The position numbers and the translations under genes are program-made. Below are positions 1,722-27,644 of a stretch of 64,000 bases of DNA, in pieces. The notes below the pieces were generated by a model. The model saw only the letters and a list, made by a program, of their open reading frames with translations, ran no database searches and was not told the DNA's origin. The stretch is from contig OMVT01000005.1 in the NCBI GenBank assembly GCA_900314535.1, positions 1 through 64,000 of the forward strand. The letters run 5' to 3'. How positions within the stretch are numbered: the first letter of the stretch is position 1; each line of letters opens with the position of its first letter. Source of the stretch: an uncultured Olsenella sp. (GTDB lineage Bacteria > Actinomycetota > Coriobacteriia > Coriobacteriales > Atopobiaceae).

Positions 1722-1727
1722 CAAGAG

Positions 1728-4237: not shown

Positions 4238-4246
4238 AACTTCCTC

Positions 4247-4417
4247 CTAGTAAGTCGCATCAGCGATGCTCATGATGGTCTTCCTTATGAGGTCAACCAT
4301 CTCGCCCGAACTTCTCTCGCGGGTATGGTCGTTTCGCCTCTCCGCCTGGAGAATCTCGTATTTCATCCTCTCGAGTTTCTGCGGGTTCAGGTCGGTTTCT
4401 GTGGCGTCTTTAGGCAT
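4247..4417 (-). CDS. 56-residue DNA-modification-associated small protein
   Basis: This small gene starts with ATG at 4417, overlaps the end of the helicase gene by 8 bases, and stops with TAG at 4247-4249, immediately before the ribosome site of the DndD-like ATPase gene. The product (begins MPKDATETDL, ends SIADATY) is charged and helical: a central Lys/Arg/Glu-rich helix with a heptad look, then a second helix. Small helical proteins of this size occur between helicase and ATPase genes in other phosphorothioation-type clusters and are annotated there only as modification-system-associated small proteins. It could bridge the helicase and the ATPase. Evidence for reality is the gapless operon fit, overlap coupling and the spacing of the next ribosome site; function is unknown. 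Confidence 0.7.
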   Translation of the reverse strand: MPKDATETDLNPQKLERMKYEILQAERRNDHTRERSSGEMVDLIRKTIMSIADATY

Positions 4418-6599: not shown

Positions 6600-6630
6600 A
6601 AGATAGCCCCTCATTCTCACAGGCTCATCC

Positions 6631-6636
6631 ATTATA
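6631..6636 (-). promoter_or_regulatory. -10 box (TATAAT) of the restriction block
   Basis: A consensus TATAAT on the minus strand lies just after the terminator that follows sspA and about 32 nt before the chosen ATG of the helicase. No good -35 hexamer is visible at 16-18 nt, because that stretch is the right arm of the hairpin. The promoter may therefore be weak or activator-dependent. Confidence 0.55.
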
Positions 6637-6646
6637 CGACCCAAAA

Positions 6647-6680
6647 AGTCATCCGGTGACTCTATAGTCACCGGATGACT
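6647..6680 (-). terminator. Perfect 15-bp hairpin terminator between modification and restriction blocks
   Basis: Arms AGTCATCCGGTGACT and AGTCACCGGATGACT are perfectly complementary around a 4-base loop. On the minus strand the stem is followed directly by TTTTT, the layout of a Rho-independent terminator. It lies 47 nt after the sspA stop. As a DNA palindrome it could also be an operator for the following promoter. Confidence 0.8.
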
Positions 6681-6727
6681 GTGTTTGGCAAATGTTGAAG
6701 CAACAAAAGGCAGAGAGATTCAGGTCG

Positions 6728-7885
6728 TTAGTAAGTCGCCTCGATGATATCAAGAGCCCCCTTGAGCCTCATCATGTCTTCTTCCGTGGTCATCGTACTC
6801 ACGCTGAGGCGTACGGTGCCCGCAGGCAAGGTGCCTAGGAATCTGTGCGCATAGGGTGCGCACTGGATGCCGGAGCGTACGGCTATGCCGAACTGGCCGA
6901 GCACCATCTCGGCCTCGTCGGGGCTGTAGCCGCCGAAGAGGGCAGAGACGACGCCGATTCTGTCACACTCCATCTGGTCACCGACAACTTGGACAAATGC
7001 ATAAGATCGGAGCAAGGAGAGAAGCTCGTCGCGTTTTGCGTTCTCATCAGCATGGACGTGCTCGATTCCCCGCTCGAGGATCCAGTTGGTCGATGCCTTG
7101 AGGCCGGCAATCGCATAGGTGTTCTGGCTTCCAATCTCCTCCATCTGCACGATGTCGTCGGGAAGGTCCTGCTCAATGGAGTTGATGCCGTTACCGCCGA
7201 AGAAGACGGGCTCCAGCCGAGCTCCGCGCTTGCAGATGAATCCGCCGATGCCAAAGGGGCCGAGGAGCGTCTTATGGCCAGCGAACACGGCAAAGTCGAA
7301 AACGTCGCTCGCGAGCGGCAGGGGAAGAAGCCCGGCGGTCTGGCTCATGTCAATGACAGTCGTCGCTCCATAGGATTTTCCGAGGCGGCAGAGATCCTCT
7401 ACCGGGACAACGGCGCCGCATACGTTGCTTGCATGAGTCATCACGAGGAGACAAGGAGGCCGCTCCGCGAACTTTCGCTCTATCTCAGCAAAATCTGGTA
7501 GCAACGTCTCCTTGTCAAAGGGCAATACCCGCACATCAACGCCATGGACCTTGGCCAGGTGATGGATCGGGCGCGTTACTGCGTTGTGTTCGAAGGGGGT
7601 CACATAGACGGCATCCCCATCGCTCAGGCCAAGGCCGAGCAGTATGCGGTTGAGCGCGTCGGTGGCGGAGGCGGTGAAGACGACCTCGCTCGCGGGGCAG
7701 CCGTATAGCGCTCTCAGGTTGTCCTTCGCCTGCCGGGCTACGTTTCCGGCGGCAACAGCTAATGCGTTCCCACCGCGACCGATATTTCCCCCGGAGTTGC
7801 GGTAGAAGGAGTCGGCGAAATCGTAGACGCTCGCAGGCTTCGGGAAAGTCGTCGCCGCGTTGTCGAAGTATGCGATATCGCCCAT
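6728..7885 (-). CDS. sspA: Cysteine desulfurase, SspA-type sulfur donor
   Basis: This is a 385-residue pyridoxal-phosphate enzyme of aminotransferase class V. The cofactor lysine lies in GHKTLLG (K205) and the sulfur-carrying cysteine in IQCAPY (C342). It would take sulfur from L-cysteine as a persulfide and pass it to SspD for insertion into the DNA backbone. It begins two bases after the sspC stop and is the last gene of the modification block; a strong terminator follows. Its sequence style (short loop around the active cysteine, GNIGRGG near residue 36) is closer to SufS/CsdA than to IscS. Without the neighbours it could be taken for a housekeeping SufS, but the tight operon argues for a dedicated role. 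Confidence 0.88.
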   Translation of the reverse strand: MGDIAYFDNAATTFPKPASVYDFADSFYRNSGGNIGRGGNALAVAAGNVARQAKDNLRALYGCPASEVVFTASATDALNRILLGLGLSDGDAVYVTPFEHNAVTRPIHHLAKVHGVDVRVLPFDKETLLPDFAEIERKFAERPPCLLVMTHASNVCGAVVPVEDLCRLGKSYGATTVIDMSQTAGLLPLPLASDVFDFAVFAGHKTLLGPFGIGGFICKRGARLEPVFFGGNGINSIEQDLPDDIVQMEEIGSQNTYAIAGLKASTNWILERGIEHVHADENAKRDELLSLLRSYAFVQVVGDQMECDRIGVVSALFGGYSPDEAEMVLGQFGIAVRSGIQCAPYAHRFLGTLPAGTVRLSVSTMTTEEDMMRLKGALDIIEATY

Positions 7886-7887
7886 GG

Positions 7888-10800
7888 CTAGCAGAGCCCC
7901 CTCAGAACATCGAACACAACCTGGCGCTTCTCCTCGGGTGAGAGCGACCCGCCCATCTCGCTCAGACAGGCGATGAGCCCGTTCTTCAGGAGACGTGAAC
8001 GCCCGCTGGTCTTGACGGGGGCGAACGTCTTCTGCTGGCGGGAGCCATCGGGGGCGATGAACACGATTCCGAGCTGGTCGCCGTCGATGTCTTCGGGCTG
8101 TTCTGCAGTCCCCTCGACCTGCCGCTTCATGCCGGAGAGGATTCTCGGGAAGTCGTCGAAGCGCGCGTCGTTCCAGTCGTCCACACGGAGGGATGTCGCG
8201 GCCTTCGCGATTCTGCCGGCGGTGACCAGATCGTCGCCGCTTGCCGCCATGATTGCGTTGAGGATCTTTCGGTTTACCCCTGTGAACGAGCGAGAGTACA
8301 CGACGGGATGCTCCTCAAGCCAGTCCTTCAGAACCGATCCGAGGCTGGAGCCTTCGTGCGCGTTCGGCTCGAAAATGCCCATGATGGTGCTTGTGAGGCC
8401 TTTGGTGCAGTCCGAGAGGTAAGCGTCACAGTCGTCCTTCTCAGCAACTATTGCGGCAACAAGGGAAGCAGAGCCGACGGGCGAGCCGAAGATCCGTGGG
8501 AACTCGTCAAACAGGAGCACGTCGGCATCCGTATCGATGCGCCGGATGGCCCTGAAGAAGGCCGCTCGCGCAGCGGGGATTCGGCCCGCCTTCCCGGAAT
8601 GGGCATGGTCGTACTGGCATGTCCGGGTAACCTGCGGAAGGGCCGCGTACCAGAGCCTGATTGCCTCGGCGACTGAGCTGCGGTCGGAGCCGCTCTTGTC
8701 GCATTTGAAGGCGGCGGCGAGCGCATGCGTGTAGGACTCCATCTGAGGAGACCAGTTGAGCCTCGTGGCCCGGTAAGACTCAGGCCGTTTCGAGAGGTCG
8801 TCCAGCAGCGTTTCGCTCAGTGGCCTCTCTTCGCCATCGAGGGTGATCTTGATCTCGTTGCGGTAGCTTCTCAGGACATAGGCGATGTATATGGGGATGG
8901 GTCCTCGCCTCAGGCCAATGCCGTATTCGGGACCGGTGAGACTCTGGTAGAGGTCGGAAAACGGGGTGTCGTCTGCACGCTCGAGAAAGTCCCGAACGAT
9001 GCGTATGACGCTGGCGATTTCCTTGCTGGGGGTGCCTGGCTCATCGATTGCATCAGACAGGCTGCTTATGAGACCGGTCTTCTCGAGCGCGCTCCTGGCC
9101 ATAGAGGTCTCCTGACCGTTGCCAACGAAGCCGAGGCTAGGGGCCAGCGTAGGCGCACAAAGCGCTTTGAGAATCTTGGTACGGCTGCTGAAGGCGGTAC
9201 CCGTGAGCTCGTTCTTGTTGAGCGCCTCGTTGGTGATGCACGGAGTGTTGCCGTACGTCTTCTCGCAGAGTGCCGAGAGCTCGTCCGAGAGCTTGCGCTT
9301 GCGGGTAATGACCTTGCGCTGCCCGCCATCGATGAAGTAGAGAGTCTGCATGAGCTCAGGCTGGAAGAACCCCGCTATGTATCCGTTGACGATCTCGGCG
9401 TAGTCCTCGATGACGACCTCGTACTCCTCGGCAAGTGCGGCATCGCCCTTGGCCTCGTCTTTCAGTTGACGCGCCGCCTCGAGCTTGTAGATGGCGTCAT
9501 CCACCTTCTTGAATGATCTCGGATAAGCGACGACGGTCATGGGGGCACAAGAAACCGAGTCCTTGGCTACTGCCTTTAGGTCATGAACCTCATCGGCTGT
9601 CGAGCAGTAGACGGCGACGATCTGGCCGTCCCCATCCTTCTTGAGAATGGGCCCATCTTCGGGTTTCCATGACAAGAGCTCTTGCGCATCGACGAAGCCG
9701 CAATCGAAGTATCGGACGATGCTGTAGTCCTCGTTGTACCTGGAAGGGTAAAGAGCGCGCCTGCCAAGGTCGGAGTTGAGTATTTCAGCGCAGCTGAGCG
9801 AGTTGCGGAGGGCCTCGGAGCGATCGGCCACCTCCCTGTCGATGGGGACGCCGGTCGTCTCCTTGAGCTGGAGATATGAGTTGCTGCGCCTCAGGTAGAC
9901 TATGGAATCCTGGGCGACCAGGGCATCAATCGCGCCGGTCACTTCGTCCATTGGGAAGCCGCTATCGGTGAAGATGTCGGCGATGTTCTGCCGCGTCGGG
10001 GCCACGGCATCGAACTGCGCGACGGCATCGATGGCGGCGACCGTCTTGATGATCTTCGCCTCTAGGCTGTCGGACCCAACGTGCACGAGCGACGCCCGAG
10101 CAAGCTCGTAGACCTTGTGCAGCGGCGACGTATAGAGTTCCTTGCGAAGCAGTGGCTCGAAGTAGTCGTAGACGTAATCGGGGGTGACGAACATCTTGAT
10201 GTCACCGATGACGTTGCCGAGGGTATGCTCGCCCGCCGAGCAGATGAAGGTGAAGAGCGTGCGCTCGTTCTGAGCCACGCGCTCGGAGAGCCTGGGGAGG
10301 AGGTATGCGGTTATGGGGTGCAGCGGATAGCAGCCGAAGGTGACAAGACGCACCTCGTCCTCAGTGAACAAGTCGTTGGCAAGGTAGCGTGAGCCCAGCG
10401 TGCGGAGCTTGCGATCGTTTGCGCCGCCGCCATCCGAGAGCCAGCGATTCCAGGTCTCGGGATCTTTGTTGATGGCGGCTGACATGAGTTCGTAGTACTG
10501 CCCGGCGTCATCATGCATGACGATTTCTCCGAAGCGCCCGGAGACGCCACGCCAACCATCAACCTTCTCCTTGGGGAGCTTGGAGTCGATGTAGTTTGAC
10601 AGGCTCTTATGGCTGATGAGGAGCAGGTGCATCTGCTTGTCGATGGCACTCCTGTTGCATGCCTCGGCGAAATCTTGGAGCAGCCTGGTGTCTTCTACGG
10701 TGGCTTTGTCAAGGCTTGTTTCGAGGTACTTGCTGAACTCGTCGTATACGACGTACACGCCGCTGATGCCCGAATCAGAGAGCCGGTCTATCACCTTCTC

Positions 10801-11475
10801 GTAGACGTCGATGACGTCGGCTCCTTCGAGGGCATCGAAGGAGCTGCCGGAGGTGAGCTGAGGGTAGAGGCTTACAAAGGTCTCGTAAGTCTTCGTATCC
10901 ATGTTCTTGAGCTGGGTGATCATGGATTCGAAGGTCAGGCCCGAGGACTCCTCGAGCCTGCGAAGCGTCTCGGGGAAGTCGCTTTTCCAGCGCTCGATCG
11001 TGGCGATAGCGCCGTCGTAGTTCGTCTGGGGCATGACGCCGTCATAGCCGTTGGCGCGAAGCGAGTTGCGGAGCGCTGAAAGGAGGGAGTGGCGAAGGTC
11101 AGAGGTGCTGCCGTTGATAATCACGGGGAGGAGTCTGGCTCCGTCGGTCACGAAGTGTTCCAGCGTCTCGCCGAACCCCAGACCGCGATTGTAGTAGGCG
11201 TCGATGATTTTCTGGAAAAGGGAGGGGTCCTTGTCCCACATGGCTTCCAGGGCGGCGAGGACGACATGGGACTTGCCCTTGCCGTATGCGCCGACGAATA
11301 GCTTCGCTCGCTGGTTAGATGGCGCGACAACCGCGCTCAGGATCTCTTCTAGATAGCGGCAGACCGCCTCGGTAGGGATGAGGCCTTCGACCTTGCTCCT
11401 GTCCCCAAAGTCGTAATCGATGTTGACTGAAGTCTGGAAGTCCTGGTTGGGCACTATGAGTTCGTCGAGGTTCAC
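7888..11475 (-). CDS. sspC: SspC-type large P-loop ATPase of DNA phosphorothioation
   Basis: This 1195-residue protein carries a Walker A (GAYGKGKS, about residues 62-69) and a Walker B-like strand ending in YDEF (about 238-241). The rest is long and helical and without motifs I can name. In SspABCD systems, SspC is the ATPase that works with the DUF4007 nickase SspB and the sulfur-handling SspD. I prefer GTG at 11475, with AGGAG about 6 nt upstream inside the stop region of sspB; a longer ATG at 11517 would overlap sspB without a ribosome site. Similar large ATPases (BrxC, PglY) occur in BREX, but the DUF4007 and PAPS-reductase neighbours point to phosphorothioation. Confidence 0.82.
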   Translation of the reverse strand: MNLDELIVPNQDFQTSVNIDYDFGDRSKVEGLIPTEAVCRYLEEILSAVVAPSNQRAKLFVGAYGKGKSHVVLAALEAMWDKDPSLFQKIIDAYYNRGLGFGETLEHFVTDGARLLPVIINGSTSDLRHSLLSALRNSLRANGYDGVMPQTNYDGAIATIERWKSDFPETLRRLEESSGLTFESMITQLKNMDTKTYETFVSLYPQLTSGSSFDALEGADVIDVYEKVIDRLSDSGISGVYVVYDEFSKYLETSLDKATVEDTRLLQDFAEACNRSAIDKQMHLLLISHKSLSNYIDSKLPKEKVDGWRGVSGRFGEIVMHDDAGQYYELMSAAINKDPETWNRWLSDGGGANDRKLRTLGSRYLANDLFTEDEVRLVTFGCYPLHPITAYLLPRLSERVAQNERTLFTFICSAGEHTLGNVIGDIKMFVTPDYVYDYFEPLLRKELYTSPLHKVYELARASLVHVGSDSLEAKIIKTVAAIDAVAQFDAVAPTRQNIADIFTDSGFPMDEVTGAIDALVAQDSIVYLRRSNSYLQLKETTGVPIDREVADRSEALRNSLSCAEILNSDLGRRALYPSRYNEDYSIVRYFDCGFVDAQELLSWKPEDGPILKKDGDGQIVAVYCSTADEVHDLKAVAKDSVSCAPMTVVAYPRSFKKVDDAIYKLEAARQLKDEAKGDAALAEEYEVVIEDYAEIVNGYIAGFFQPELMQTLYFIDGGQRKVITRKRKLSDELSALCEKTYGNTPCITNEALNKNELTGTAFSSRTKILKALCAPTLAPSLGFVGNGQETSMARSALEKTGLISSLSDAIDEPGTPSKEIASVIRIVRDFLERADDTPFSDLYQSLTGPEYGIGLRRGPIPIYIAYVLRSYRNEIKITLDGEERPLSETLLDDLSKRPESYRATRLNWSPQMESYTHALAAAFKCDKSGSDRSSVAEAIRLWYAALPQVTRTCQYDHAHSGKAGRIPAARAAFFRAIRRIDTDADVLLFDEFPRIFGSPVGSASLVAAIVAEKDDCDAYLSDCTKGLTSTIMGIFEPNAHEGSSLGSVLKDWLEEHPVVYSRSFTGVNRKILNAIMAASGDDLVTAGRIAKAATSLRVDDWNDARFDDFPRILSGMKRQVEGTAEQPEDIDGDQLGIVFIAPDGSRQQKTFAPVKTSGRSRLLKNGLIACLSEMGGSLSPEEKRQVVFDVLRGLC

Positions 11476-11483
11476 GGGATCTC

Positions 11484-12398
11484 CTATCCGATTAGGTCGT
11501 AGTACCAGCGGAGGCACTCTTCTTTGGAGAGGTCTTCCGTGAGGATGCGCACCACGTCGAGTCCCGCGGTCCGGTTGATGCGAAGGTAGTCGTTGTTCTG
11601 CAGCTCATAGAGCTTGTCGAGGAGACCAACGGAGTCGAGATTGTATACGCGACCGGGAGAGAACGGGCCGTTGAGCAGCGTCTCGATGGGGATTTCTGAT
11701 TGTCGCTCGCTGTCATCGTCAAGGTGTTCCTGCATCGAGCAGATGGCGTAGAGGACGAGTATGGCGGGAAGTGAGTTGAGGTTAGGCGGGGTCTTGCGGA
11801 ACGTGCGATTGGAGCGGCTCTCAATATCAATGAGTCCGAGGTCGCTAAGCGGGCAGTCGATGACACTTTCCGGAGAGATGGGCTTGCCGTTCATGCGGTC
11901 GTGCGGCACGTAAGTGCCTATGATGCAGTTGAAGTCGGATTCCAGCGATGCCAGAGCGACGTCCTTACGGTCGTTATAGGTAAAGACATATCGCTCTAGC
12001 GCTCTTGTGAAGTCCTCGCGGCCGAAAACACCCATGTTGAATTCATTGAAGAAGAAATACCAGGCTGTCGCTTCTTCCTGTGCGGAGGCAAGGTTGCACT
12101 GAAGGGCTAAGAGAGTTCCGATTTCCTCGGTATAAGTGTCTCGCTCGAGGATGAGCTTACCGAGTTCCGTCAGGACATGTTCGTGCTTGCGTCCGTCGGC
12201 GTATCCGATAAGTCCCATGGCCTGCAACCAATAGCGCAGAGCGATGACCTGGTTGGCACCGAGGCCAAGTTCATCCATGGCCGTTTTACTGCTACTGGGC
12301 ATGAGCATCCGGTTGTCTTTGATAATGGCTTTAAGCCCTTTGCTGATCCAGCCCTTGCGGACGAAGAACGACTGGTGAGCCTTGAATCTCATCTGCAT
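11484..12398 (-). CDS. sspB: SspB-type DUF4007 protein, probable DNA nickase of phosphorothioation
   Basis: The 304-residue sequence opens with the DUF4007 signature: a Phe/His segment with FFVRKGWISKG, then an LGLGANQVIALRYWLQ helix. A winged-helix-like middle follows, and a C-terminal part with a YNLDSVGLLDKL segment. SspB of the Vibrio SspABCD system is reported as a site-specific nickase whose nick allows sulfur incorporation in one strand. It lies four bases after the sspD stop, so sspD, sspB and sspC are almost certainly cotranscribed. Catalytic residues of this family are not well enough known to me to check individually. Confidence 0.82.
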   Translation of the reverse strand: MQMRFKAHQSFFVRKGWISKGLKAIIKDNRMLMPSSSKTAMDELGLGANQVIALRYWLQAMGLIGYADGRKHEHVLTELGKLILERDTYTEEIGTLLALQCNLASAQEEATAWYFFFNEFNMGVFGREDFTRALERYVFTYNDRKDVALASLESDFNCIIGTYVPHDRMNGKPISPESVIDCPLSDLGLIDIESRSNRTFRKTPPNLNSLPAILVLYAICSMQEHLDDDSERQSEIPIETLLNGPFSPGRVYNLDSVGLLDKLYELQNNDYLRINRTAGLDVVRILTEDLSKEECLRWYYDLIG

Positions 12399-12402
12399 GG
12401 GC

Positions 12403-14118
12403 CTATCCCTCCTGGACTCTCAGGTACTTGCGCATGAGGCATCCGCCTTCCAGGTATTTGTCGGTTACGCACTGATGGCAGTGCACGCACTTAGCGGGAT
12501 CGATGTGGTAACCGCTGCCATTGATGGTGATCGCGTTAAAACGGCAGAGCGCCTCACACTTGAGGCACTGGCGGCAGGCGTTATATTTGACGACCTGGTA
12601 TTTGGCCATACGAAGAAGAGCCTCGCTGTCGGAGGTCTTCAGAATTCGCACCTTCGCCGCATACTCGTAGCCAGGCTGGGAGAACGGCATTACAGAGATG
12701 AGAGGCTCGTTGGTCCTGTGGTCAACGATGACGCTTTCGTGCAGAAGCGGCCGTCCGAGCCCCGGCGCGTAATCACCGATGGGTGTCATAAGTCCTACGA
12801 ACTCGTCCGAGTAAGGCCTCTCGAGAGAGAAGATCATGGCATTGTCATCCGTCGCGCAGTGGCTGGCCTCGACTTGAACCGTTTTGGCGGCTGCAACGCC
12901 ATTTCCGCCTTGCCGCGCCTTCCACTTACCAGTGTCAACATAGACCTCTGGGTCGGGTTTTCCGATTCTCCGAGCGAAGTCCACGAGGAATGTGCGCCAC
13001 CGTTCAGATTGCTCCGGCATGTAGATTTGCGAGAGGAACTGGGCCCGTGGGTTGTTGTTCGGGCACATCCAGCAGCCGACACGTTCATAGCCGAGTCGGT
13101 AGGCATCGTTGAAGTCGATGCCTTCGGAGAGGATGTAGAGCCAGACGTCACAGTCGTTCCAGTAGAAGATGGGCGAGGCGACCTTTTGTCTCTGAATCTT
13201 GACGGACTCCGCGCTGTCCTCTACACGATTGTACTTGCTTCGAGATACGGACTCGTTCTTGCGTATGCCATAGAAGGTAAGGATTGGCTCATCGCCAAAG
13301 AGCCCCTTGAACGCACGGGAAATGGGACCGGTCTTGAACATGGAGCAGCACCAGCGCATCGTGCGGGCTGGTGGCCCAATAACGTTTGCGACGTCGTAAA
13401 AGTCCTGCTCATAATTCTTTGCGACCTTGAATATCGCGAGCGGATGGTTGTCCCTAAAGCGTTTGGCATACTCGATTGTGCTCGGGAACTCAAGAGTGGT
13501 GTTGCCGAAGATATGTACAAGATATGGGTTGCTTAGAGCCCGCACGGCTAGATCGGCGGTGACTGTAGAGTCCTTACCGCCAGAGAACGATACGACAAGG
13601 TGCTCATCCGGATAACCCTCTGAAGCTTTAACGATGAAATCACTGGCTTCACGGACGAGAGCACCAAGGTGCTCTTTGTTGGCTTCGACGAAGGCGGTCT
13701 TGTAACGCTTGAACCCATCGTCAGAGTTTAAGGGTCCATATTCTTCAAGCTGTTTGCGTATGTCGTTGGGATCAGTGGCGAGGATAGTCGCCACCGATAT
13801 GTTGTTGGGCTTGCCATTGACATAGTATTTGCTGCCCACGGCCCACACGGAGTCGTCTTTGAAGGCAAGGGGCCTTCCGACCATCAACTCAAAAAGTAGC
13901 CGCTCCTCAGGAAAGACGGGCCTGATGTCAGCACAGAGATAGCCGGCCTCGCCGCCGCAGCGAGGGCAGGTAATTCGATTCTGGCCTGGTGTATGTATAA
14001 TAGGTATCCTGCAATCACTGCACCAATAGATAGCATGGGGTGCAACCTCGACGGTTCTGCTGCCACATTCAGGGCATACTTCGCTATCGGTGTGGCGATT
14101 GCATTTGACACAATACAT
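12403..14118 (-). CDS. sspD: SspD/DndC-like PAPS-reductase-family protein with zinc ribbons and a ferredoxin tail
   Basis: The start is ATG 14118, preceded by GGAG at 10 nt; longer in-frame starts run through a palindromic leader. The 571-residue product has two N-terminal zinc ribbons (CxxC...CxxC, about residues 2-60), an ATP-pyrophosphatase loop SGGKDS (179-184) and the DndC-type cysteines in WCCSMF and GCWMCPN. It ends with a ferredoxin-like tail containing two cysteine clusters (CRQCLKCEALC and CVHCHQC). The family activates DNA or sulfur by adenylation and transfers sulfur from the cysteine desulfurase, using an iron-sulfur centre. The extra ferredoxin-like tail could deliver electrons. 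It is the first gene of the modification block. Confidence 0.85.
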   Translation of the reverse strand: MYCVKCNRHTDSEVCPECGSRTVEVAPHAIYWCSDCRIPIIHTPGQNRITCPRCGGEAGYLCADIRPVFPEERLLFELMVGRPLAFKDDSVWAVGSKYYVNGKPNNISVATILATDPNDIRKQLEEYGPLNSDDGFKRYKTAFVEANKEHLGALVREASDFIVKASEGYPDEHLVVSFSGGKDSTVTADLAVRALSNPYLVHIFGNTTLEFPSTIEYAKRFRDNHPLAIFKVAKNYEQDFYDVANVIGPPARTMRWCCSMFKTGPISRAFKGLFGDEPILTFYGIRKNESVSRSKYNRVEDSAESVKIQRQKVASPIFYWNDCDVWLYILSEGIDFNDAYRLGYERVGCWMCPNNNPRAQFLSQIYMPEQSERWRTFLVDFARRIGKPDPEVYVDTGKWKARQGGNGVAAAKTVQVEASHCATDDNAMIFSLERPYSDEFVGLMTPIGDYAPGLGRPLLHESVIVDHRTNEPLISVMPFSQPGYEYAAKVRILKTSDSEALLRMAKYQVVKYNACRQCLKCEALCRFNAITINGSGYHIDPAKCVHCHQCVTDKYLEGGCLMRKYLRVQEG

Positions 14119-14145
14119 TCTTTGTATACTCCGCTCAGAGTCTAA

Positions 14146-14169
14146 GCATTGGATGTCATCATCCAATGC
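14146..14169. promoter_or_regulatory. Perfect 10-bp palindrome in the sspD leader
   Basis: Arms GCATTGGATG and CATCCAATGC flank a 4-base centre, 28-51 bases upstream of the sspD start. There is no T-run after it, so it is not a typical terminator. It looks like a dimeric repressor site or a stabilising RNA hairpin. No regulator gene for it is evident in the island. Confidence 0.55.
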
Positions 14170-14235
14170 GACCATCTTAGCAAAGCGGACGTACCGATAA
14201 AAGCCCCTAGCGTGCAATCGACTGACAGAAAATCC

Positions 14236-14241
14236 ATTATA
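14236..14241 (-). promoter_or_regulatory. Candidate -10 box of the sspDBCA block
   Basis: TATAAT on the minus strand about 118 nt before the sspD start would place the palindrome at 14146-14169 inside the transcript leader. A matching -35 hexamer is not convincing, so this is a tentative call. Confidence 0.4.
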
Positions 14242-14623
14242 ATAGCATACTGCCAAGAGAAATGCCATCAGGCAATCGGTGTGCCTGACAATGCATGTCA
14301 GCGGGAGATGCGGATAGGCCGCTCGCTGATTGCCGATATCCACCAATGAATAAGTGAATTGCCAATCCGCGGTTGAAAGCTGCAAAAGGCTAACCGATTA
14401 AGTCCACGGACTTCTTGAAAAACCATTTCGCTGCAGGAAGCTGAGGTTACCGTTTGCGGCGACGGATCCTCTGGGCGCGTCAGGCGCATGTACCATCGAC
14501 GAATCCGTTAGGGCCACGGCTGGGGGAGATTACCACGATGATGGATAAGGATTCCTGCACCTTGAGTATGGCGATGAGAACAGGACGCTAGAGTATGGTC
14601 GTCTCGACACGGAAGAGGCATTC

Positions 14624-14842
14624 GTGAAGGAGACCGGCAGTGGCGACATCACGCAGTTCTGCTACGACGCGCCCGCCCGTGAGACCACCATCACGCTCCG
14701 TGAGACCGAGGACTACTCTCTCGAGGACGTGGCTGACACGCTTCGCAGGGATGCGGAGGACCTGTTCATCGGTGACATCGCGGAGATCCTCGGATTCTGG
14801 AATGTTCCTTACGTGAAGGACGAGAAGGTCCTGGCGTCGTAG
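14624..14842 (+). CDS. Hypothetical 72-residue protein, possibly a 5'-truncated remnant
   Basis: The GTG-started frame encodes an acidic, helical protein (TEDYSLEDVADTLRRDAEDL segment) with no recognised domain. The frame stays open upstream to 14549 and reads sensibly there (LEYG occurs twice), but lacks a good start and ribosome site. This suggests the real N-terminus was lost or frameshifted. It lies between the defence island and the decayed prophage. Confidence 0.35.
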   Translation: MKETGSGDITQFCYDAPARETTITLRETEDYSLEDVADTLRRDAEDLFIGDIAEILGFWNVPYVKDEKVLAS

Positions 14843-15261
14843 CGAGGCGAGAGGGACAAGAGGCGCGAGAAGAACGAGGGACCGTCATCGACTGCCCCTT
14901 TTTGACGAGAAGAGCCATTTCCCACCTCACCATCCCACACGCCAGGTGGTGATGTCGTCGGGGCGCCGCAGTCGCGTCCGCTGCGGGCGTTCCGCCGGGG
15001 CGCGCGGGATGGTGGGGTGGGGATACCGATAGCAAGCAACCGGACTGGGGATCCGCCTCGCTTGCACCGGCTGCGCACAGCCTCAGACGAGACATTTCCG
15101 GACTTGCGTCTCAAACGGACCTGAGACCCTCCGGCGCCGGATTCCTGCCCCTGAGAGCTCTCACATGGCTCTCGCGCCGTACGCAGCGCGTCGCAGGGCC
15201 TCCCGCCCTTCACCGCGTCGCCCGGGACGACGCAATCTTCCGCGTGGGGGTCGATTCGTCC
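14843..15261. other. Gene-free stretch at the island/prophage boundary
   Basis: No frame here reads like a protein. Composition changes from moderate to very GC-rich across it. I see no tRNA, terminal repeat or clear hairpin terminator. It is probably degraded sequence downstream of the portal-gene fragment. Confidence 0.4.
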
Positions 15262-15687
15262 CTATGCCCCGTCCCCGTACCACTTACTGCGGTACTCCTC
15301 GCGCGTCATCAGGCCTGCCGTGACCTCGTCCATGTCCTGGCGCTTCTCGGAGGCGGTGTCCTGCACGATGGAGTCGTCGTATATCACGGACACGCCGCCC
15401 TTCTCGGGAAGCGCCTCGCCCATGTGCCGCGCGCAGGAGAGAAGGGCGTGCGCGACGCCCGCGAGTGCGCCCTCCAGCGCGTTCTCGTTCTTGCGGACAT
15501 TGCGCATGAGGGCGCTGTTGTCGCTCGAGATCTCCGTGGCCGTCTTCACGTACCCCACGTTGTCCAGGTCGAAGTAGTTCACGCCCAGCCCCACGAGGTC
15601 GCCCAGCACCTGCAGCGCCAGGCGGAACGCCTTGCCCTGCGCCTCGGTCCTCAGCGCCGGTGCGAACTCCTGGATTGTGTCTGAGCC
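15262..15687 (-). pseudogene. Phage portal protein, C-terminal fragment
   Basis: The frame reads as the C-terminal third of an SPP1/A118-type portal protein. It has an EFAPALR segment, KTATEISSDNS (the TATE motif typical of these portals), and an end with VIYDDSIVQD and REEYRSKWYG. The portal forms the dodecameric DNA gateway of tailed-phage heads. The first two thirds are missing: similarity starts at about 15687, exactly where a hairpin (15682-15712) begins, and the frame upstream has no portal character. No terminase or other head genes survive nearby, so this is a relic of a deleted prophage. Confidence 0.7.
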
Positions 15688-15712
15688 CTGTCCATTATAT
15701 TGACAGGGCTCA
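15682..15712. repeat. Perfect 11-bp inverted repeat at the portal-fragment junction
   Basis: Arms TGAGCCCTGTC and GACAGGGCTCA flank a 9-base AT-rich loop. It forms the exact boundary where portal homology ends, and the preceding tiny frame stops within its right arm. It may be a transposon end or a deletion scar; without a T-run it is a poor terminator. Confidence 0.55.
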
Positions 15713-15763
15713 CACCCAGCGAGGCTCCGCCCTCAGTTCGGCGGGCACCCTGCTCAGATCCAT
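15710..15763 (-). pseudogene. 17-codon frame with strong ribosome site, probably a truncated gene start
   Basis: GGGAGG lies 7 nt before ATG 15763. The frame (begins MDLSRVPAEL) stops at TGA inside the inverted repeat. A strong ribosome site before so short a frame suggests the surviving start of a gene removed by the same rearrangement that truncated the portal gene. Confidence 0.25.
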
Positions 15764-15793
15764 TTCTGCCTCCCGTGCGAGGGGGACTCGGGC

Positions 15794-16015
15794 CTAGTTG
15801 ATTCCACGGTTGCGCCCCCTCGGCTGACGGGGGCCGCACCCGGCGCGCCGGGCGTTCGGGAGCACGCAGTAAATCGGGATGAGCCAGCGGCCGTTCACCT
15901 TGTCCGCCGGGATGCGGCCCTCCCGGATGCCGCGCGTGATCGACCCCACGTGCTCGCCCGTGAGCTCCGAGAGCACTCGGTGAGTCACCAAGGGAGGGAG
16001 ATCGCTGATGCCCAT
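15794..16015 (-). CDS. Excisionase-like small DNA-binding protein
   Basis: The 73-residue product has the layout of MerR/Xis-type winged helix-turn-helix proteins: a short helix pair (HRVLSELTGEHVGSITRGI), a basic turn (REGRIPADKV) and the NGRWLIP wing. Such proteins bend DNA at attachment sites and steer the integrase toward excision. It is transcribed away from two XRE regulator genes across an AT-rich control region. That fits a lysogeny-type switch in an integrative element. The integrase itself is broken, so an excision role is probably lost. Confidence 0.55.
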   Translation of the reverse strand: MGISDLPPLVTHRVLSELTGEHVGSITRGIREGRIPADKVNGRWLIPIYCVLPNARRAGCGPRQPRGRNRGIN

Positions 16016-16128
16016 AGGTCGCCTTCCTTTCTCGAATCATGCCTTTGGAATGGGGCGGGTGCTGCCGGCGTGCCACCCGATGGCGCACCATTGCCTCCCG
16101 CGACGTGTAGGCTAGCATAGAAAATATC

Positions 16129-16207
16129 ATAGTGTGAGGATGTCCGCATATAGTGGTAGAATAAAGCGATAAACGCTTGTAAGAATAGTCATAATCTGAT
16201 AGACTAT
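16129..16207. promoter_or_regulatory. AT-rich divergent control region with direct and inverted repeats
   Basis: This strip is far more AT-rich than its surroundings. It holds ATAGTG twice, 21 bp apart (16129, 16150), a small palindrome AAGCG/CGCTT (16164-16178) and ATAGTC/GACTAT (16185-16207). It separates the excisionase-like gene from the first XRE gene and is the likely binding region for one or both XRE regulators. Confidence 0.5.
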
Positions 16208-16280
16208 GTTGCGAAGTGTTATGTCCCGCAATCGGCAAACGGCATCGGGGCGCCACGGAACGTGCGCGGAGGGAAGGGTC

Positions 16281-16949
16281 ATGTCCAGCAGGCTGCTCGA
16301 GATACGCAAGGCGGCGGGGTACGCCACGGCAAGGGAGTTCGCCGAGGCCTCCGGCCTGGCGGAGTCCACCTACACGCGCTACGAGTCGAACCCCGAGAAG
16401 ATCCCGCTCAAGGTCGCCTGGGACCTCGCGGACCGGTTCCACGTGACCATCGACCAGGTGGTTGGTCGCGACACCGAGGCCAAGGGCGACCCGCGCGGGG
16501 CGCAGCAGAGGGCGTTCGACGCGCTGTCGCCGCGCTCGCAGGAGGAGGCGGCCGACTTCATGGCCTACCTCGCCGAGCGTGACGCCCGCAGCAGGGAGGC
16601 GCAGTCCGAGAGGGCGAGGCGCGTGTGGGAGGTCGTATCCTCGCGCATCGAGCGCGCCTACCTCGGCAGACTCTCCGAGAAGCCGGGTGGGCCCGACCCG
16701 GTCCTGCTCACGGGGAGCGACGCGGAGCTGCGCGAGGGGTTCCGGAACCTCGCCCGCGCGTGGGTCGTCGGGGCGAAGGGACCGCTCAACCGGTTCGCGC
16801 CCCAGGTGCGCGACGAAGAGGCGCTCGAGGAGGTCATGGCTGCTTACGATCGCATGCACGAGTCGTTCGTGGACGACCACGGCATGCTCGTCAGCTGGTC
16901 ACGGGAGGCGGGTCCCGGCTACGAGGGGGGAGGTCTCGCCGGGAGGTAG
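16281..16949 (+). CDS. XRE-family helix-turn-helix regulator (222 residues)
   Basis: The start ATG 16281 follows GGAGGGAAGG. Residues 1-60 form an XRE helix-turn-helix (EIRKAAGYATAREFAEASGL, then TYTRYES). After it comes VTIDQVVGRD, a pattern shared with the next gene. The C-terminal 150 residues are helical with an HESFVDDHG segment and no named domain. It probably regulates the divergent excisionase-like gene across the AT-rich strip. An upstream ATG at 16206 is in frame but lacks a ribosome site. Strongly GC-rich codon use matches the other element genes rather than the core. Confidence 0.7.
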   Translation: MSSRLLEIRKAAGYATAREFAEASGLAESTYTRYESNPEKIPLKVAWDLADRFHVTIDQVVGRDTEAKGDPRGAQQRAFDALSPRSQEEAADFMAYLAERDARSREAQSERARRVWEVVSSRIERAYLGRLSEKPGGPDPVLLTGSDAELREGFRNLARAWVVGAKGPLNRFAPQVRDEEALEEVMAAYDRMHESFVDDHGMLVSWSREAGPGYEGGGLAGR

Positions 16950-17040
16950 CCCGAGAAAGAAGGCGGCCCGCGGGAGCTGGCACTCCCACGGGCCCGTTGT
17001 CCATTCCAAAGGCATATTCCAGAAAGGACGGTGACAGTAT

Positions 17041-17436
17041 ATGTCATCTCCCACCACCACGCACACGCCCGAGGGCGGGGGCAGCCCCGTCGCGGGCGGC
17101 AGGAGGACCCTGCAGAGGCTCAGGAGGGGCGCCGGCTACCCCAGCGCGAAGGTGTTCGCCGCCGAGCTCGGCATTCCCGAGACCACCTACGCCCGCTACG
17201 AGAGGGCGCCCGAGACGCCGCAGTGCGGCATCTCCATGGCCAACGCCTGGGCGATCGCCGACAAGCTCGGCTGCTCCATCGACCTCGTGGTCGGCCGCGA
17301 GGACATCGACAGGCCCCGACCCGTTACCCTCGACGACAGGGCTCGTGCCCTCACGCGCGAGAGCCGCCGCATGCTCGACGACTACCTCGACTACCTCGAG
17401 CACCGCGACGCCGAGGACTCCCGGGCGAGGCGGTAG
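17041..17436 (+). CDS. XRE-family helix-turn-helix regulator (131 residues), paralogue of the previous gene
   Basis: After a Gly/Pro/Thr-rich start (about 20 residues) comes a helix-turn-helix (LRRGAGYPSAKVFAAELGIP, TYARYER), then SIDLVVGRED. This closely parallels the VTIDQVVGRD of the 222-residue regulator upstream. The tail (RMLDDYLDYLEHRDAED) is helical. AGAAAGGA lies upstream of ATG 17041. It directly precedes the broken integrase gene by two bases, so the pair was probably cotranscribed. The two paralogues suggest a past duplication within the element. Confidence 0.7.
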   Translation: MSSPTTTHTPEGGGSPVAGGRRTLQRLRRGAGYPSAKVFAAELGIPETTYARYERAPETPQCGISMANAWAIADKLGCSIDLVVGREDIDRPRPVTLDDRARALTRESRRMLDDYLDYLEHRDAEDSRARR

Positions 17437-17438
17437 CC

Positions 17439-18641
17439 ATGGCCAAGGTCACGGGAGAGGGCTCCATCATCCAGATGGAGAAGGACAAGCCGAAGTCCAA
17501 GTGCCGCACCTGGCAGCTGCGCGTGCCCATCGGCGTGGACGCGCGCACCGGCAAGTACAGGCAGCGCACCCGCGTGGTGTACGGCATCTACACCGAGGCC
17601 AAGAAGGCCCTGCGCGCCTTCATCGAGGAGATAGAGGGCGACCACGTCCAAGGCCGCACCGACTACACCTTCGAGGCCTACTGTCGGCACTACCTCAAGG
17701 CGCGCCGCAAAGAGGGAAGTGGCGCCCACCACGAAGAGAAGGCAGGAATGGCAATTCGGGGCGGCCTGCCGCCACATCGGACACGTCAAGCTCGAACAGG
17801 TCACGCCCACGATGCTCAACGACATGTACATCGCGATGATGCGGGGCGACACCATGTCCAGCAAGCCCTCCAGCGGCTCCTACGTCAACCAGATTCACGA
17901 CAACATCACCCTCGTGTTCGAGGCCGCCAAGGCCGAGGGCATCCTGGCCGAGAATCCCTGCGACAAGGTCACGCCGCCCAAGATGGACGCGCGAGCTAAG
18001 AAGGTCGTCCCGTCCGACAAGGCGCGCGCGTTCATAGACTCGCTCGACCCGTCGAACCCCCACGAGCTCGCCTGGCTCATTGCCGCCACCATGGGGCTCG
18101 GGCGGGGAGAGGTATGCGGGCTGTCATGGGGCGACGTCGACTTTGACCGCAGGGTCGTGAGCATCCGCCACTCCTACGACGAGCTCGGCAACCTCAAGGG
18201 CACCGAGGCGAAGGCCGGTACGCGCCTGCTGCCGCTGCCCGACATCACGGCGAGGGACCCCTCACGGCCAAGGGGCTCCAGGCCGAGTACTTCGAGCGCA
18301 TCAACGAGTCGCGGCGAAAGAAGGGAAAGACCGGCTCCGAGTGGCACCTTGAGCAGACCGACGAGACGTCCGTGATTACGGCCAAGTGCAGCGAGCGCAT
18401 CAAGCCGAGCTCGCTGTCGCGATGGTGGCCGCTCGAGCGCGGCAACTACTGCCTCGATGGCTCCTCCCTCCACGAGCTCGGACACACCTGCCTGACGCTC
18501 CTCGCCGAGGAGGGCGTGCATCCCAAGGCCATGCAGGAGCTGGCGGGCCACTACAGCTCGCAGATCACGATGGATGTGTGCACCCACGCCAACATGGACG
18601 CCAAGCGAGAGGCCGTCGCCTCCGTGTCCAAGCTCTTCTGA
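17439..18641 (+). pseudogene. Tyrosine-recombinase integrase, two frameshifts and catalytic residues lost
   Basis: Read across three frames, this is a phage-type integrase of about 400 residues. It has an Arm-binding start (TWQLRVPIGVDARTGKYRQR), a core-binding helix domain, and a catalytic domain. One extra base near 17711-17718 and a second shift near 18250-18262 break the frame. The conserved positions have also changed: Arg I of GLRxGE is GLGRGE, Arg II of HxLRHT is HELGHT, and the tyrosine of MDVYTH is MDVCTH. Each is explained by one base change from the expected codon. The element can no longer move by its own recombinase. Confidence 0.85.
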
Positions 18642-18667
18642 GCAAGCCGGCCGGTCCTAGCACAGCG

Positions 18668-18702
18668 ATACCCCCTGAGCCGCCATCTGCCCCAGGGGGT
18701 AT
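18668..18702. terminator. Hairpin after the integrase pseudogene
   Basis: Arms ATACCCCCTG and CAGGGGGTAT (10 bp) with a 15-base loop lie 27 bases past the integrase stop. There is no T-run, so its efficiency as a terminator is uncertain. Confidence 0.45.
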
Positions 18703-18896
18703 AATCATGCCAGTGCAGGTAGTGGGACCAAATCGCTCATCCGCCACCAAGTGAGTTTTCTTCTCCGGCCTCGTCCGGACCCCAATTCCATCAGCAGAAG
18801 CATTCTTCCAAAACTCTTCCAACGCGGGATTCCTCGACCAACAAAACCGCAGATAGATAGCTTATTCACTCTTCGGCGCAAGTACTGAGTGGGAAT

Positions 18897-24553: not shown

Positions 24554-24776
24554 GTGCGTGACTCCTTGTCATCTTGTGCGGAGCGGGTAGGCAGATGGCA
24601 TATGCTCAGCCCTGCTCTGCTGCTTTCCAGAAGGCACATGATTCAAGGCTCAGTATATGTGTGTGCTCCATTGTTAGCACCAACTGCCCGCGAGCGGGTC
24701 GGCGTGCGTCCCAAATGGATGAGGAAGGACCAATTATCACAACTTGTTCATGCAGAACGTGCATCTGTTAAGGGGT

Positions 24777-25787
24777 TTAGGCAGCAGGCGTCCGGTCGTG
24801 GTTGATCTCCTGATAGAAGAGCTGTGCGATCTCTTCGGTCGAGGTTCCCGTGCCCAGGGCCCACATCGTCTTTGCGACAAGCGCCTCTGTCGTCATGTCC
24901 CCGCCGAGCAATATTCCTGGCCGGTCCTGGAATGCATGGCCCACCTCGTAGACGCCGAGGTCGAGCCCCTCTTCGGGTACCTGGGTCGTGAGCACGCAGG
25001 TCCTGCCGGACGCTACCCAGGAAAAGATCGCTTCCTGGAAGGCGCCTCCGTCGTAGTCGGGGATGCCGCCGATGCCGAAGGTCTCCAAGATCACAGCGTC
25101 GTAGTCGCGCTCGAGAAGATGGAAGATCGAAGGCCTGAGCTCGGGCGTGAGCTTCAAGACGAGCACACGCTCGTCGAGCGCGAAGTAGCGCCTGAGGTGG
25201 AGCCCCTCCTTCGAGGCAGGCTTTGCAAGGCCGCTCCAGATGACCCGGTTCTGGCGGATGTAGGCAAGCGTCGGATAGTTCATGCTCGTGAAGGCGTTGT
25301 AGCTCATCGTGCGCTGCTTGTGGGCACGCGTGCCGGCGATGGCCTTGCCATTGAAGACGATCGTGACCTCTCGGGCCGAGTCGTCTGTGGCAAAGAGGAC
25401 GGACTGGTAGAGGTTGAGCTTTGCATCCGTGAAGGGCGCTGCCATCGGCTGCTGGGAGCCGGTGAGCACGATCGGCTTCGGCGAGTCCTCAAGGAGATAG
25501 GAGAGCGCTGCTGCCGTGTATGCCATCGTGTCGGTCCCGTGCAGCACGACGAACCCGTCATACTCCTCGTAGTGCGCAGCTATCGTGTCTGCAATCTGGA
25601 GCCAGTCGCGCGGGCGCATGTTCGTGCTGTCTATGTTCATGGGCTGCACGATATCGAGCTCTGCCAGCTCTGCGAGCTGCGGGACACGCTCGACGAGCTC
25701 TGTGCCCGTGAGTCCCGGGGCAAGTCCCGTGTCGTGGGGGAGCGAGGCGATGGTGCCGCCGGTCGCGACGATGAGTATGCGCTTCAT
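24777..25787 (-). CDS. ansA: L-asparaginase, type I (AnsA-like)
   Basis: The 336-residue protein has both asparaginase signatures: ATGGTIAS at the N-terminus (nucleophilic threonine in GGTIAS) and VVLHGTDTMAYTAAAL with the second threonine and aspartate. A MNIDSTNM segment supplies the substrate-binding serine. It converts asparagine to aspartate and ammonia. No signal peptide is seen, so it acts in the cytosol like AnsA. AAGGA lies 5 nt before ATG 25787. It diverges from ettA. An asparaginase/glutaminase with a wider range cannot be excluded. Confidence 0.88.
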   Translation of the reverse strand: MKRILIVATGGTIASLPHDTGLAPGLTGTELVERVPQLAELAELDIVQPMNIDSTNMRPRDWLQIADTIAAHYEEYDGFVVLHGTDTMAYTAAALSYLLEDSPKPIVLTGSQQPMAAPFTDAKLNLYQSVLFATDDSAREVTIVFNGKAIAGTRAHKQRTMSYNAFTSMNYPTLAYIRQNRVIWSGLAKPASKEGLHLRRYFALDERVLVLKLTPELRPSIFHLLERDYDAVILETFGIGGIPDYDGGAFQEAIFSWVASGRTCVLTTQVPEEGLDLGVYEVGHAFQDRPGILLGGDMTTEALVAKTMWALGTGTSTEEIAQLFYQEINHDRTPAA

Positions 25788-25870
25788 AGCATCCTTTCTG
25801 GTAGAGCCGGGCCCATTCTAGCGGGTTTGCTTCCCTCTTGCGTGCCTTCTGCGCATTCGGGAGCAGACGC

Positions 25871-25900
25871 TTCAGGCTGGATGTATGGCTCCCGTACAAT
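25871..25900 (+). promoter_or_regulatory. Candidate promoter of ettA
   Basis: TACAAT (25895-25900) with a weak TTCAGG 18 bases upstream. It overlaps the ATG at 25899, which argues that this ATG is not the start of translation and that the GTG at 25965 is used. Confidence 0.5.
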
Positions 25901-25964
25901 GAAATGGATATCGATAGACAAGGGAGCGGTGCGCTCCTCAGAACCGGAAGGACGTGATGGTCCT

Positions 25965-27644
25965 GTGGCAGAGTTCATCTACCAGATGCATCAGGCCCGC
26001 AAGGCATTCCAGGGCAAGGTCATCCTGGACGACGTGACGATGGGATTCTTTCCTGGCGCCAAGATCGGCGTCGTCGGCCCGAATGGCATGGGCAAGTCCA
26101 CGCTCCTGAAGATCATGGCAGGGCTCGAGGACGTGTCTGCCGGCGAGGCGCGCCTGACGCCGGGCTATACGGTGGGACTTCTTGAGCAGGAGCCGCCGCT
26201 CGACGAAGACAAGACCGTGATCGAGAACATCAAGATGGCATATGGCGACCTGCTCGGAAAGATCGACCGCTTCAACCAGATCGGCGAGGAGATGGCGTCG
26301 CCCGATGCCGACTTCGATTCTCTGATGGCCGAGATGGGACGCCTCCAGGACGAGATCGACGCGGCGAATGGCTGGGACCTCGAAAGCCAGCTCTCGCAGG
26401 CTATGGATGCCCTCCAGTGCCCCGATCCAGACGAGCCGGTCACGCATCTCTCCGGCGGCGAGAGAAGGCGTGTCGCCCTCTGCAGGCTCCTTCTCGAGGC
26501 ACCGGACCTGCTGCTTCTCGACGAGCCGACAAACCACCTCGATGCCGAGTCTGTCCTCTGGCTCGAGCAGTACCTCAAGAACTATCCAGGAGCAGTCCTC
26601 GCCGTCACGCATGACCGCTACTTCCTGGACGACGTCGCCGAGTGGATCTGCGAGGTCGACCGTGGCACGCTCTATCCCTACAAGGGCAACTACTCGACCT
26701 ACCTCGAGACGAAGGCAGCCCGCCTCGAGATGGAAGGCAAGCAGAACGCGAAGCGCGCCAAGAAGATGAAGAGCGAGCTCCAGTGGGTGCGTTCCGGTGC
26801 GAAGGCCCGCCAGGCCAAGAGCAAGGCACGTCTTGCTGCCTACGAGCAGATGGAGGCAGAGTCCAAGAACATCCGCACCGTCGACTTCACGGAGATCCAT
26901 ATCCCGGCAGGCCCGCGCCTCGGCTCCAAGGTCCTCGAGGCCACGCACCTCTCGAAGTCCTTCGGCGACCGTGTGCTGATCGACGATCTCACCTTCAGCC
27001 TTCCCCGGAATGGCATTGTCGGCGTGATCGGCCCGAACGGCGTCGGCAAGTCCACGCTCTTCAAGATGATTGTCGGGCAGGAGCAGCCTACAGGGGGCTC
27101 GCTCGAGCTCGGCGAGACCGTGAAGCTCTCCTATGTCGACCAGATGCGCGCAGGCATCGATCCTGACAAGAATGTCTGGGAGGTCGTGTCCGATGGCAAC
27201 GACACGATCATCGTCGGCGAGGCCGAGGTGCCGAGCCGTGCCTATGTGAGCGCCTTCGGCTTCAAGGGCCAGGACCAGCAGAAGCGTGCCGGCGTCCTTT
27301 CGGGCGGCGAGAGGAACCGCCTGAACCTTGCATTGACGCTTCGCCAGGGCGGAAACCTGCTCCTGCTCGACGAGCCGACAAACGACCTCGATACGGAGAC
27401 CCTGGAATCCCTCGAAGAGGCGCTCCAGGAGTTTGCTGGCTGTGCTGTCATCACGAGCCACGACCGCTGGTTCATGGACCGTGTCGCAACGCACATCCTT
27501 GCCTGGGAGGGCACGGATGAAAATCCGGGTGCCTGGTACTGGTTCGAGGGCAACTTCGAGGCCTACCAGGAGAACCGCGAGAAGAGGCTCGGGCCTGACG
27601 CCTCGCGCCCGCACCGCATCCACCGCAAGCTCACGCGCGACTAG
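25965..27644 (+). CDS. ettA: ABC-F translation factor EttA
   Basis: The 559-residue protein is two fused ABC ATPase domains without membrane parts: Walker A GPNGMGKST and GPNGVGKST, signatures LSGGERRRV and LSGGERNRL, Walker B LLLDEPTNHLD and LLLDEPTNDLD. Between them lies a basic arm and linker. EttA binds the ribosomal E site and restrains translation when ATP is low. I chose GTG 25965, because family members begin MAxFIYxMH and the upstream ATG lies in the promoter. Length matches E. coli EttA (555). A convergent terminator follows. Confidence 0.9.
   Translation: MAEFIYQMHQARKAFQGKVILDDVTMGFFPGAKIGVVGPNGMGKSTLLKIMAGLEDVSAGEARLTPGYTVGLLEQEPPLDEDKTVIENIKMAYGDLLGKIDRFNQIGEEMASPDADFDSLMAEMGRLQDEIDAANGWDLESQLSQAMDALQCPDPDEPVTHLSGGERRRVALCRLLLEAPDLLLLDEPTNHLDAESVLWLEQYLKNYPGAVLAVTHDRYFLDDVAEWICEVDRGTLYPYKGNYSTYLETKAARLEMEGKQNAKRAKKMKSELQWVRSGAKARQAKSKARLAAYEQMEAESKNIRTVDFTEIHIPAGPRLGSKVLEATHLSKSFGDRVLIDDLTFSLPRNGIVGVIGPNGVGKSTLFKMIVGQEQPTGGSLELGETVKLSYVDQMRAGIDPDKNVWEVVSDGNDTIIVGEAEVPSRAYVSAFGFKGQDQQKRAGVLSGGERNRLNLALTLRQGGNLLLLDEPTNDLDTETLESLEEALQEFAGCAVITSHDRWFMDRVATHILAWEGTDENPGAWYWFEGNFEAYQENREKRLGPDASRPHRIHRKLTRD

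Follow-up and report, generated by a model that had tools for sequence, protein, structure and literature searches.

A decayed tyrosine integrase at the right end of a probable grounded prophage in an uncultured Olsenella, and covariation of the arm-binding domain with putative arm-type repeats among its relatives

The closest described systems are the tyrosine integrases of the IntTn916 type (PF14657 plus PF00589). Their domain order and catalytic motifs are like those of the relatives of the gene studied here, whereas the copy in our window lacks four of the six catalytic residues and has no open frame. The accessible part of PMC8138268 describes the catalytic pentad RKHRH plus Tyr and a beta-stranded insertion in the catalytic domain; the three-stranded sheet with a helix that is predicted at the N terminus here resembles the IntTn916 subgroup as presented in the same part. 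Grounded prophages of E. coli, for example Qin with its mutated intQ', likewise combine a mutated recombinase gene with loss of phage genes; grounding via recombinase mutation and the decay of grounded prophages are both treated in the available portions of PMC6379469. Compared with those portions, the remnant in our window belongs to another phage lineage, resides in another host and adjoins a defence cluster. Paired arm-type repeats of 10-11 bp and differing arm-binding domains are also found in the integration cassettes of Cluster K and Cluster J mycobacteriophages (PMC3203893, PMC3706429, both as far as accessible). In these accessible parts the authors link site and domain differences for Cluster K (subcluster K1), while for Cluster J they saw no systematic change of site that went with the difference in domain. 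For Mycobacterium abscessus, prophages arranged in tandem at one site have been described (PMC9934374, accessible part). Among the listed titles and openings of abstracts on arm-type specificity, domain swaps, mosaic integrases and prophages at guaA, in Coriobacteriaceae or in tandem, which for some of these topics are a part of the papers found and include few subscription papers, no account of the family described below was found.

The window is a stretch of 64,000 nucleotides from an uncultured Olsenella sp. (contig OMVT01000005.1, positions 1 to 64,000), and all coordinates refer to it and to its plus strand unless stated. The feature at 17439-18641 reads as a tyrosine integrase with arm-binding, core-binding and catalytic parts distributed over two frames (PF14657, PF00589 and homology). 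We interpret it, with a probability of about 90%, as the pseudogene of an integrase that marks the right end of a prophage element, grounded and for the most part deleted. The gene begins with ATG and ends with TGA; it is read in the first frame from 17439, in the next one over about 17719-18249, and in the first again up to the stop at 18641. Two frameshifts had been predicted from the DNA alone and both are borne out. The first break lies at 17700-17718 (net -2 bases) and the second at 18247-18250 (net -1 base), each measured against the nearest intact relative. A functional IntTn916-type recombinase requires a single open reading frame, which the window copy lacks. PF14657 is recognised on 17439-17711 with 24.2 bits (cut-off 22.3); the last piece of the integrase alone scores 25.1 bits for PF00589, below the cut-off of 27.1, while three intact relatives reach 71-81 bits.

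Alignment with the relatives places the loss of the first catalytic Arg (Arg-I to Gly, GLGRGE) at 18100-18102, that of the second (Arg-II to Gly, HELGHT) at 18480-18482 and that of the nucleophile Tyr (to Cys, MDVCTH) at 18579-18581. These three losses had been predicted, and each codon is indeed one base from that of the nearest intact relative; of the positions originally given for them, 18481 is correct, while 18112 and 18575 are about 10 and about 4 bases off. A fourth loss, which the original prediction did not contain, changes the catalytic Lys of the beta-hairpin to Glu at 18205-18207. The Lys column was placed by aligning the intact relative L008 to 6emy, one of the solved structures nearest by sequence (6emy, 6en0 and 6emz, all titled 'Int protein'), which we take to be the Int of Tn1549. 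A search of the PDB with the N-terminal piece of the window's integrase gave no match. Thus R, K, R and Y of the set R-K-H-R-H plus Y are replaced and both His are retained. The comparison set comprised 53 distinct relatives whose open frame reaches 330 aa or more, and the broken copies stand outside it except L018. In this set Arg-I, Arg-II, Tyr and His-II are each kept in 53/53. The third His is kept in 52/53, and so is the catalytic Lys, for which the single exception by aligned letter is L018, a copy that is frameshifted there.

The remnant of the temperate-phage element spans 14563-18896, and its gene order is kept as a series of stumps. At 14563-14842 a translated match (49% over 89 aa) corresponds to a small ORF that neighbours the portal in the intact element. 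The C-terminal remnant of a phage portal gene follows at 15262-15682 on the minus strand (PHROG 533, 4.1e-23, on 15262-15609). The 5' tip of a primase-helicase gene is found at 15711-15763, also on the minus strand, with its end coordinate projected from a relative and the rest of the gene absent. Between these two truncated genes lies a 31-bp palindrome with perfect arms at 15682-15712 (no strand assigned), which resembles the two ends of an insertion sequence with no interior left. About 7.7 kb present in L048, the contig of the nearest relative, are missing from the window at this junction. The 25-bp tip of the palindrome occurs 44 times in a genome of the same genus (G051) and three times in the window's draft genome at up to two mismatches, and we read the palindrome as a probable insertion-sequence scar at a deletion junction. 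Two helix-turn-helix regulators are open and intact: one of 247 aa at 16206-16949 (96% identity to its counterpart in the intact element, 10:11 replacement to silent changes against L048) and one of 131 aa at 17041-17436 (98% identity, 2:4). The integrase follows, and the element ends with an attachment core at 18883-18896. These stumps and regulators beside the integrase are common to the remnant and its intact counterparts.

Members of its family occur across the order of the host. The middle piece of the integrase matches 106/140 genomes of the family, many of them distant, and an intact relative used as query matches 52/395 genomes of the order at E <= 1e-60, the window and broken copies included. 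The nearest relative, L035 (the same locus as L006), is located on contig QOUO01000051.1 of a metagenome-assembled genome from another genus of the family; it is 92.6% identical to the window over 15711-18641 and its integrase is open. Its contig (L048) is 99.99% identical over 9.1 kb to a 30.5-kb IMG/VR provirus, G140. Together the two carry portal, terminase, primase-helicase, two regulators, integrase, endolysin and tail protein, besides a weakly recognised excisionase-like gene; a major capsid gene was not recognised in G140 among the ORFs scanned. In blastn searches of phage and plasmid DNA collections, 17000-18760 of the window found no match.

The provirus G140 starts in the tail of guaA, whose final residues TIEWE and stop lie at the core, so that the element sits at the 3' end of guaA. 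The guaA tail of G140 is 73% identical over 126 bases to the guaA of the window's genome. That gene is located on another contig (C52), and the 4 kb on its downstream side gave no phage match; guaA as the site of the remnant is therefore unproven. The distances in G051 lead to the same conclusion, since in that genome the ATPase that adjoins the remnant in the window is separated from guaA by about 2.1 Mb in one direction and, should the 3.0-Mb contig be circular, by about 0.9 Mb in the other. Contigs C52 and C68 showed no overlap in their first 400 bases. A left core is present in two of the seven provirus records examined (G140 and G398), and in both, repeats of the element's own class, spaced by 12, are found near it. 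In the window's genome a left attachment core was not found, which counts against our main reading; the 12-base core occurs once in that genome, and the contig starts at base 1 of the window. A second, partial guaA C-terminal region is seen in another genome (G052:C116:5789-5995), which also has a longer one; the partial copy could mark the border of a guaA island.

Changes in the integrase were assigned to lineages from 17719 on, with 11 outgroups plus L035 and with three codons around 18258-18260 unread. The window lineage has 22 replacement and 10 silent changes, or 24:10 with two Arg changes that were not polarised, since two codon families occur among the outgroups. Without selection, the lineage's own spectrum predicts 23.3 replacements out of 32 (25.1 of 34 with the Arg changes). 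The lineage of the intact L035 shows 5:13, which differs from the window lineage (Fisher p=0.008); a further 13 replacement and 14 silent differences between the two copies, two Arg among them, are of unassigned lineage. Since the ratio of the window lineage is near the no-selection expectation, the gene evolves as a pseudogene: it combines homology to intact members, with the later two pieces 91.6% and 87.3% identical to L006, with lost constraint.

From these data a course of events can be proposed. The element would have entered the chromosome by recombination through its own tyrosine integrase, which would have used the arm-binding domain, the tandem arm repeats 3' of the gene and a core with GAGTGGGA, parts that homology identifies. 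An insertion sequence may then have entered the element, which lost a large part of its phage body in an order of events that we can only suppose, leaving the 31-bp scar between the stumps of portal and primase. With nothing left to excise, constraint on the integrase would have been lost; the gene has gathered two frame breaks and about two dozen replacements, four of them catalytic. The two adjoining regulators stayed open, perhaps for superinfection immunity. The lesions of the integrase would thus be ordinary decay of a grounded prophage, for which no special cause is needed, and it is possible that the first of them was a selected grounding.

The concentration of losses in the catalytic site is a point against plain decay. 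The original prediction held that random decay rarely hits exactly these positions, so that loss of activity may have been selected or that active copies were harmful during sampling or cloning. The losses are indeed more concentrated than neutral decay predicts. Against 21 close relatives, 4/6 catalytic invariants are changed in the window compared with 12/98 other invariant columns (Fisher p=0.005). A model with the lineage's own spectrum, which comprises 33 hand-adjusted changes with the catalytic ones among them, gives P=0.0009 for four or more of six, and a hypergeometric test on a wider set of 65 invariants gives P=0.009; all of these concentration tests (P about 0.001-0.009) were made after the fact. 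On a rival reading, a catalytic mutation would have been selected for grounding the prophage, shielding the host from induction and fixing the defence cluster, with the remainder decaying later; the grounding hypothesis as such is published (PMC6379469, accessible part). Other broken copies lend this some weight: a catalytic Arg is gone in 3/8 of them, one each in L020, L022 and the second copy in L050, while L018, L021, L032, L224 and L225 show no loss among readable catalytic residues. When the nine broken copies are pooled with the window included, 7 catalytic losses stand against 2.18 expected (P=0.0019). However, the excess is not significant without the window (3 losses against 1.07 expected, P=0.075); in site counts the eight copies have 3/41 catalytic losses compared with 7/379 at other invariants (p=0.064, stratified 0.075), which is suggestive but short of significance. 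Several hits cannot each have been selected. Locking the element needs one lesion and not six, so that selection of each loss is unsupported; other invariants fall too, and the overall ratio is near neutral at 22:10. Only the first lesion could have been selected, and selected loss is thus unproven. We consider selected inactivation a doubtful explanation that still deserves a place beside decay. Harm during cloning finds no support; the window is a genome-assembly contig and decay reaches the portal and primase genes as well.

Two further explanations are far less probable. A catalytically dead integrase could have been retained to act as a regulator that binds its own arm sites, and its arm-binding domain, located before the first frame break, is still recognised, with the arm repeats still present. 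However, the frame breaks after about 90 codons and only the N-terminal 91 residues could act, and from 17719 on replacement changes are near the neutral ratio, which makes such a role very improbable. An even slighter chance is assigned to frame breaks and substitutions being sequencing or assembly errors. The assembly is a draft of 87 contigs, which would leave room for them, but more than 30 lineage-specific substitutions and two indels would have to fall within one gene, while neighbouring long frames are open (753, 1209, 708 and 966 aa) and the same element has its portal and primase truncated too. Ordinary decay of a grounded prophage is therefore our preferred reading of the lesions.

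As a fossil the locus is of value, because its core and arm repeats survive and its intact relatives reveal a domain and repeats that vary together. Along 15711-18590, 120-base blocks of the window show 89-99% identity to L035, except at 17443-17760, where nucleotide identity is about 68%. This divergent segment begins at the start codon of the integrase and covers the coding sequence of the arm-binding domain (PF14657) and, judged by position, the first part of the core-binding domain. Similarity breaks off once more after the stop codon and resumes at the core. In this second region the window carries tandem 11-bp repeats at 18801-18822, putative arm-type sites of a TTCTTCC class. Tandem 11-bp repeats are present in 22/22 rows that are at least 59% identical to L011 and have at least 120 bases after the gene, and in 4/20 rows below 59% with the same length of sequence; 11/53 rows of the survey had too little sequence. 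By chance a tandem pair is expected in about 0.4% of such regions.

Four repeat classes are distinguished: TTCTTCC (window, L011, L017 and L212, the last only 32% identical to L011 overall), TTTGTCC (L013), TTCGTACC or similar (L014, L016, L019, L099 and L034) and GTGGC/GTAGC (L006, L008, L104 and L120). The correlation sample comprised 15 of 26 tandem-repeat rows plus the window; ten near-identical rows and L213 (38% identity, an odd N-terminal domain and another repeat sequence) were left out by hand. Given the catalytic part, the repeat class is correlated with the N-terminal domain (partial Mantel r=0.27, p=0.006, n=16 with L009 kept), and the correlation is 0.35 without L009 (p=0.0007, n=15) and 0.31 without L009 and L007 (p=0.002, n=14). 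The reverse test, repeat class against the catalytic part given the N-terminal domain, gives p of 0.98 and above. Whole-domain identity is only weakly correlated with the repeat class (r=0.17, p=0.04, n=16; r=0.16, p=0.06, n=14). Single columns of the N-terminal domain carry signal, the best with p=0.013, and the top five together reach p=0.0005, the minimum attainable with 2000 permutations; this test was done without L009 and L007 on four class labels that were assigned after seeing the repeats, one class having the single member L013. The best single column of the catalytic part has p=0.94. Across 14 protein groups the repeat class thus follows the N-terminal domain and not the catalytic part, with L009 as the one discordant copy. 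This copy (G105:C219) has the N-terminal domain of one class beside repeats of another and an altered core; it could reflect a recent swap, belong to a dead element or come from a chimeric bin. In contrast to Cluster J as described in the accessible reports, the repeat class here follows the domain, and in one pair the sequences that flank the swapped segment are alike.

The five best-associated residues are 13, 26, 42, 44 and 46. In a structure prediction of L118 (mean pLDDT 77, pTM 0.50, 9 sequences), residues 26, 42, 44 and 46 are found in the strands predicted at 24-33 and 40-48 of a three-stranded sheet. Residues 42, 44 and 46 alternate on one predicted strand and should therefore share one face, and a fourth of the five positions falls on the strand next to it.

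Elements with different repeat classes are also observed side by side. In both G088 and G064, repeats of another class come after a TTCTTCC element. In G088 (L050, 11180-11702) a second element stands in tandem after the first core, with the other repeat class at its left arm; its integrase is broken, and the fragment reads HELGHS, a separate loss of the same Arg. In G064 no second integrase was found. The arrangement suggests at most that repeat classes may let several elements share one site. On a broader view, integrases of this family would exchange the arm-binding domain and the matching tandem arm repeats jointly, with the core staying much the same, as a modular specificity code of which window and L035 are one instance. 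Elements of different class could then stand in tandem beside one core, as in G088 and G064, and distinct arms could restrict each integrase to the ends of its own element. We hold the chances of this proposal to be evenly balanced. The covariation makes the recognition code of the arm-binding domain directly testable with four repeat classes, and is relevant to the way in which several elements occupy a single insertion site.

Directly left of the remnant is a phosphorothioation-type defence cluster at 510-14385 on the minus strand, named from the best PADLOC matches. Over 2252-14385 these are PbeC, PbeA, SspA, SspC, SspB and BrxP/SspD, a blend of phosphorothioation-system names; two ORFs at 510-2252 have no PADLOC match. 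On the corresponding portal side of G140, between tail and portal (L059/L060), IetA/IetS-like genes, a methyltransferase and a restriction enzyme are found, so that different defence genes stand beside the same phage module, of Ssp/Pbe type here and IetA/IetS-like with restriction-modification in G140. A tRNA-Ile call at 13082-13176 falls inside the BrxP-like gene and is probably false. To the right, the window contains a 966-aa open frame at 24744-27644 with two ABC_tran stretches.
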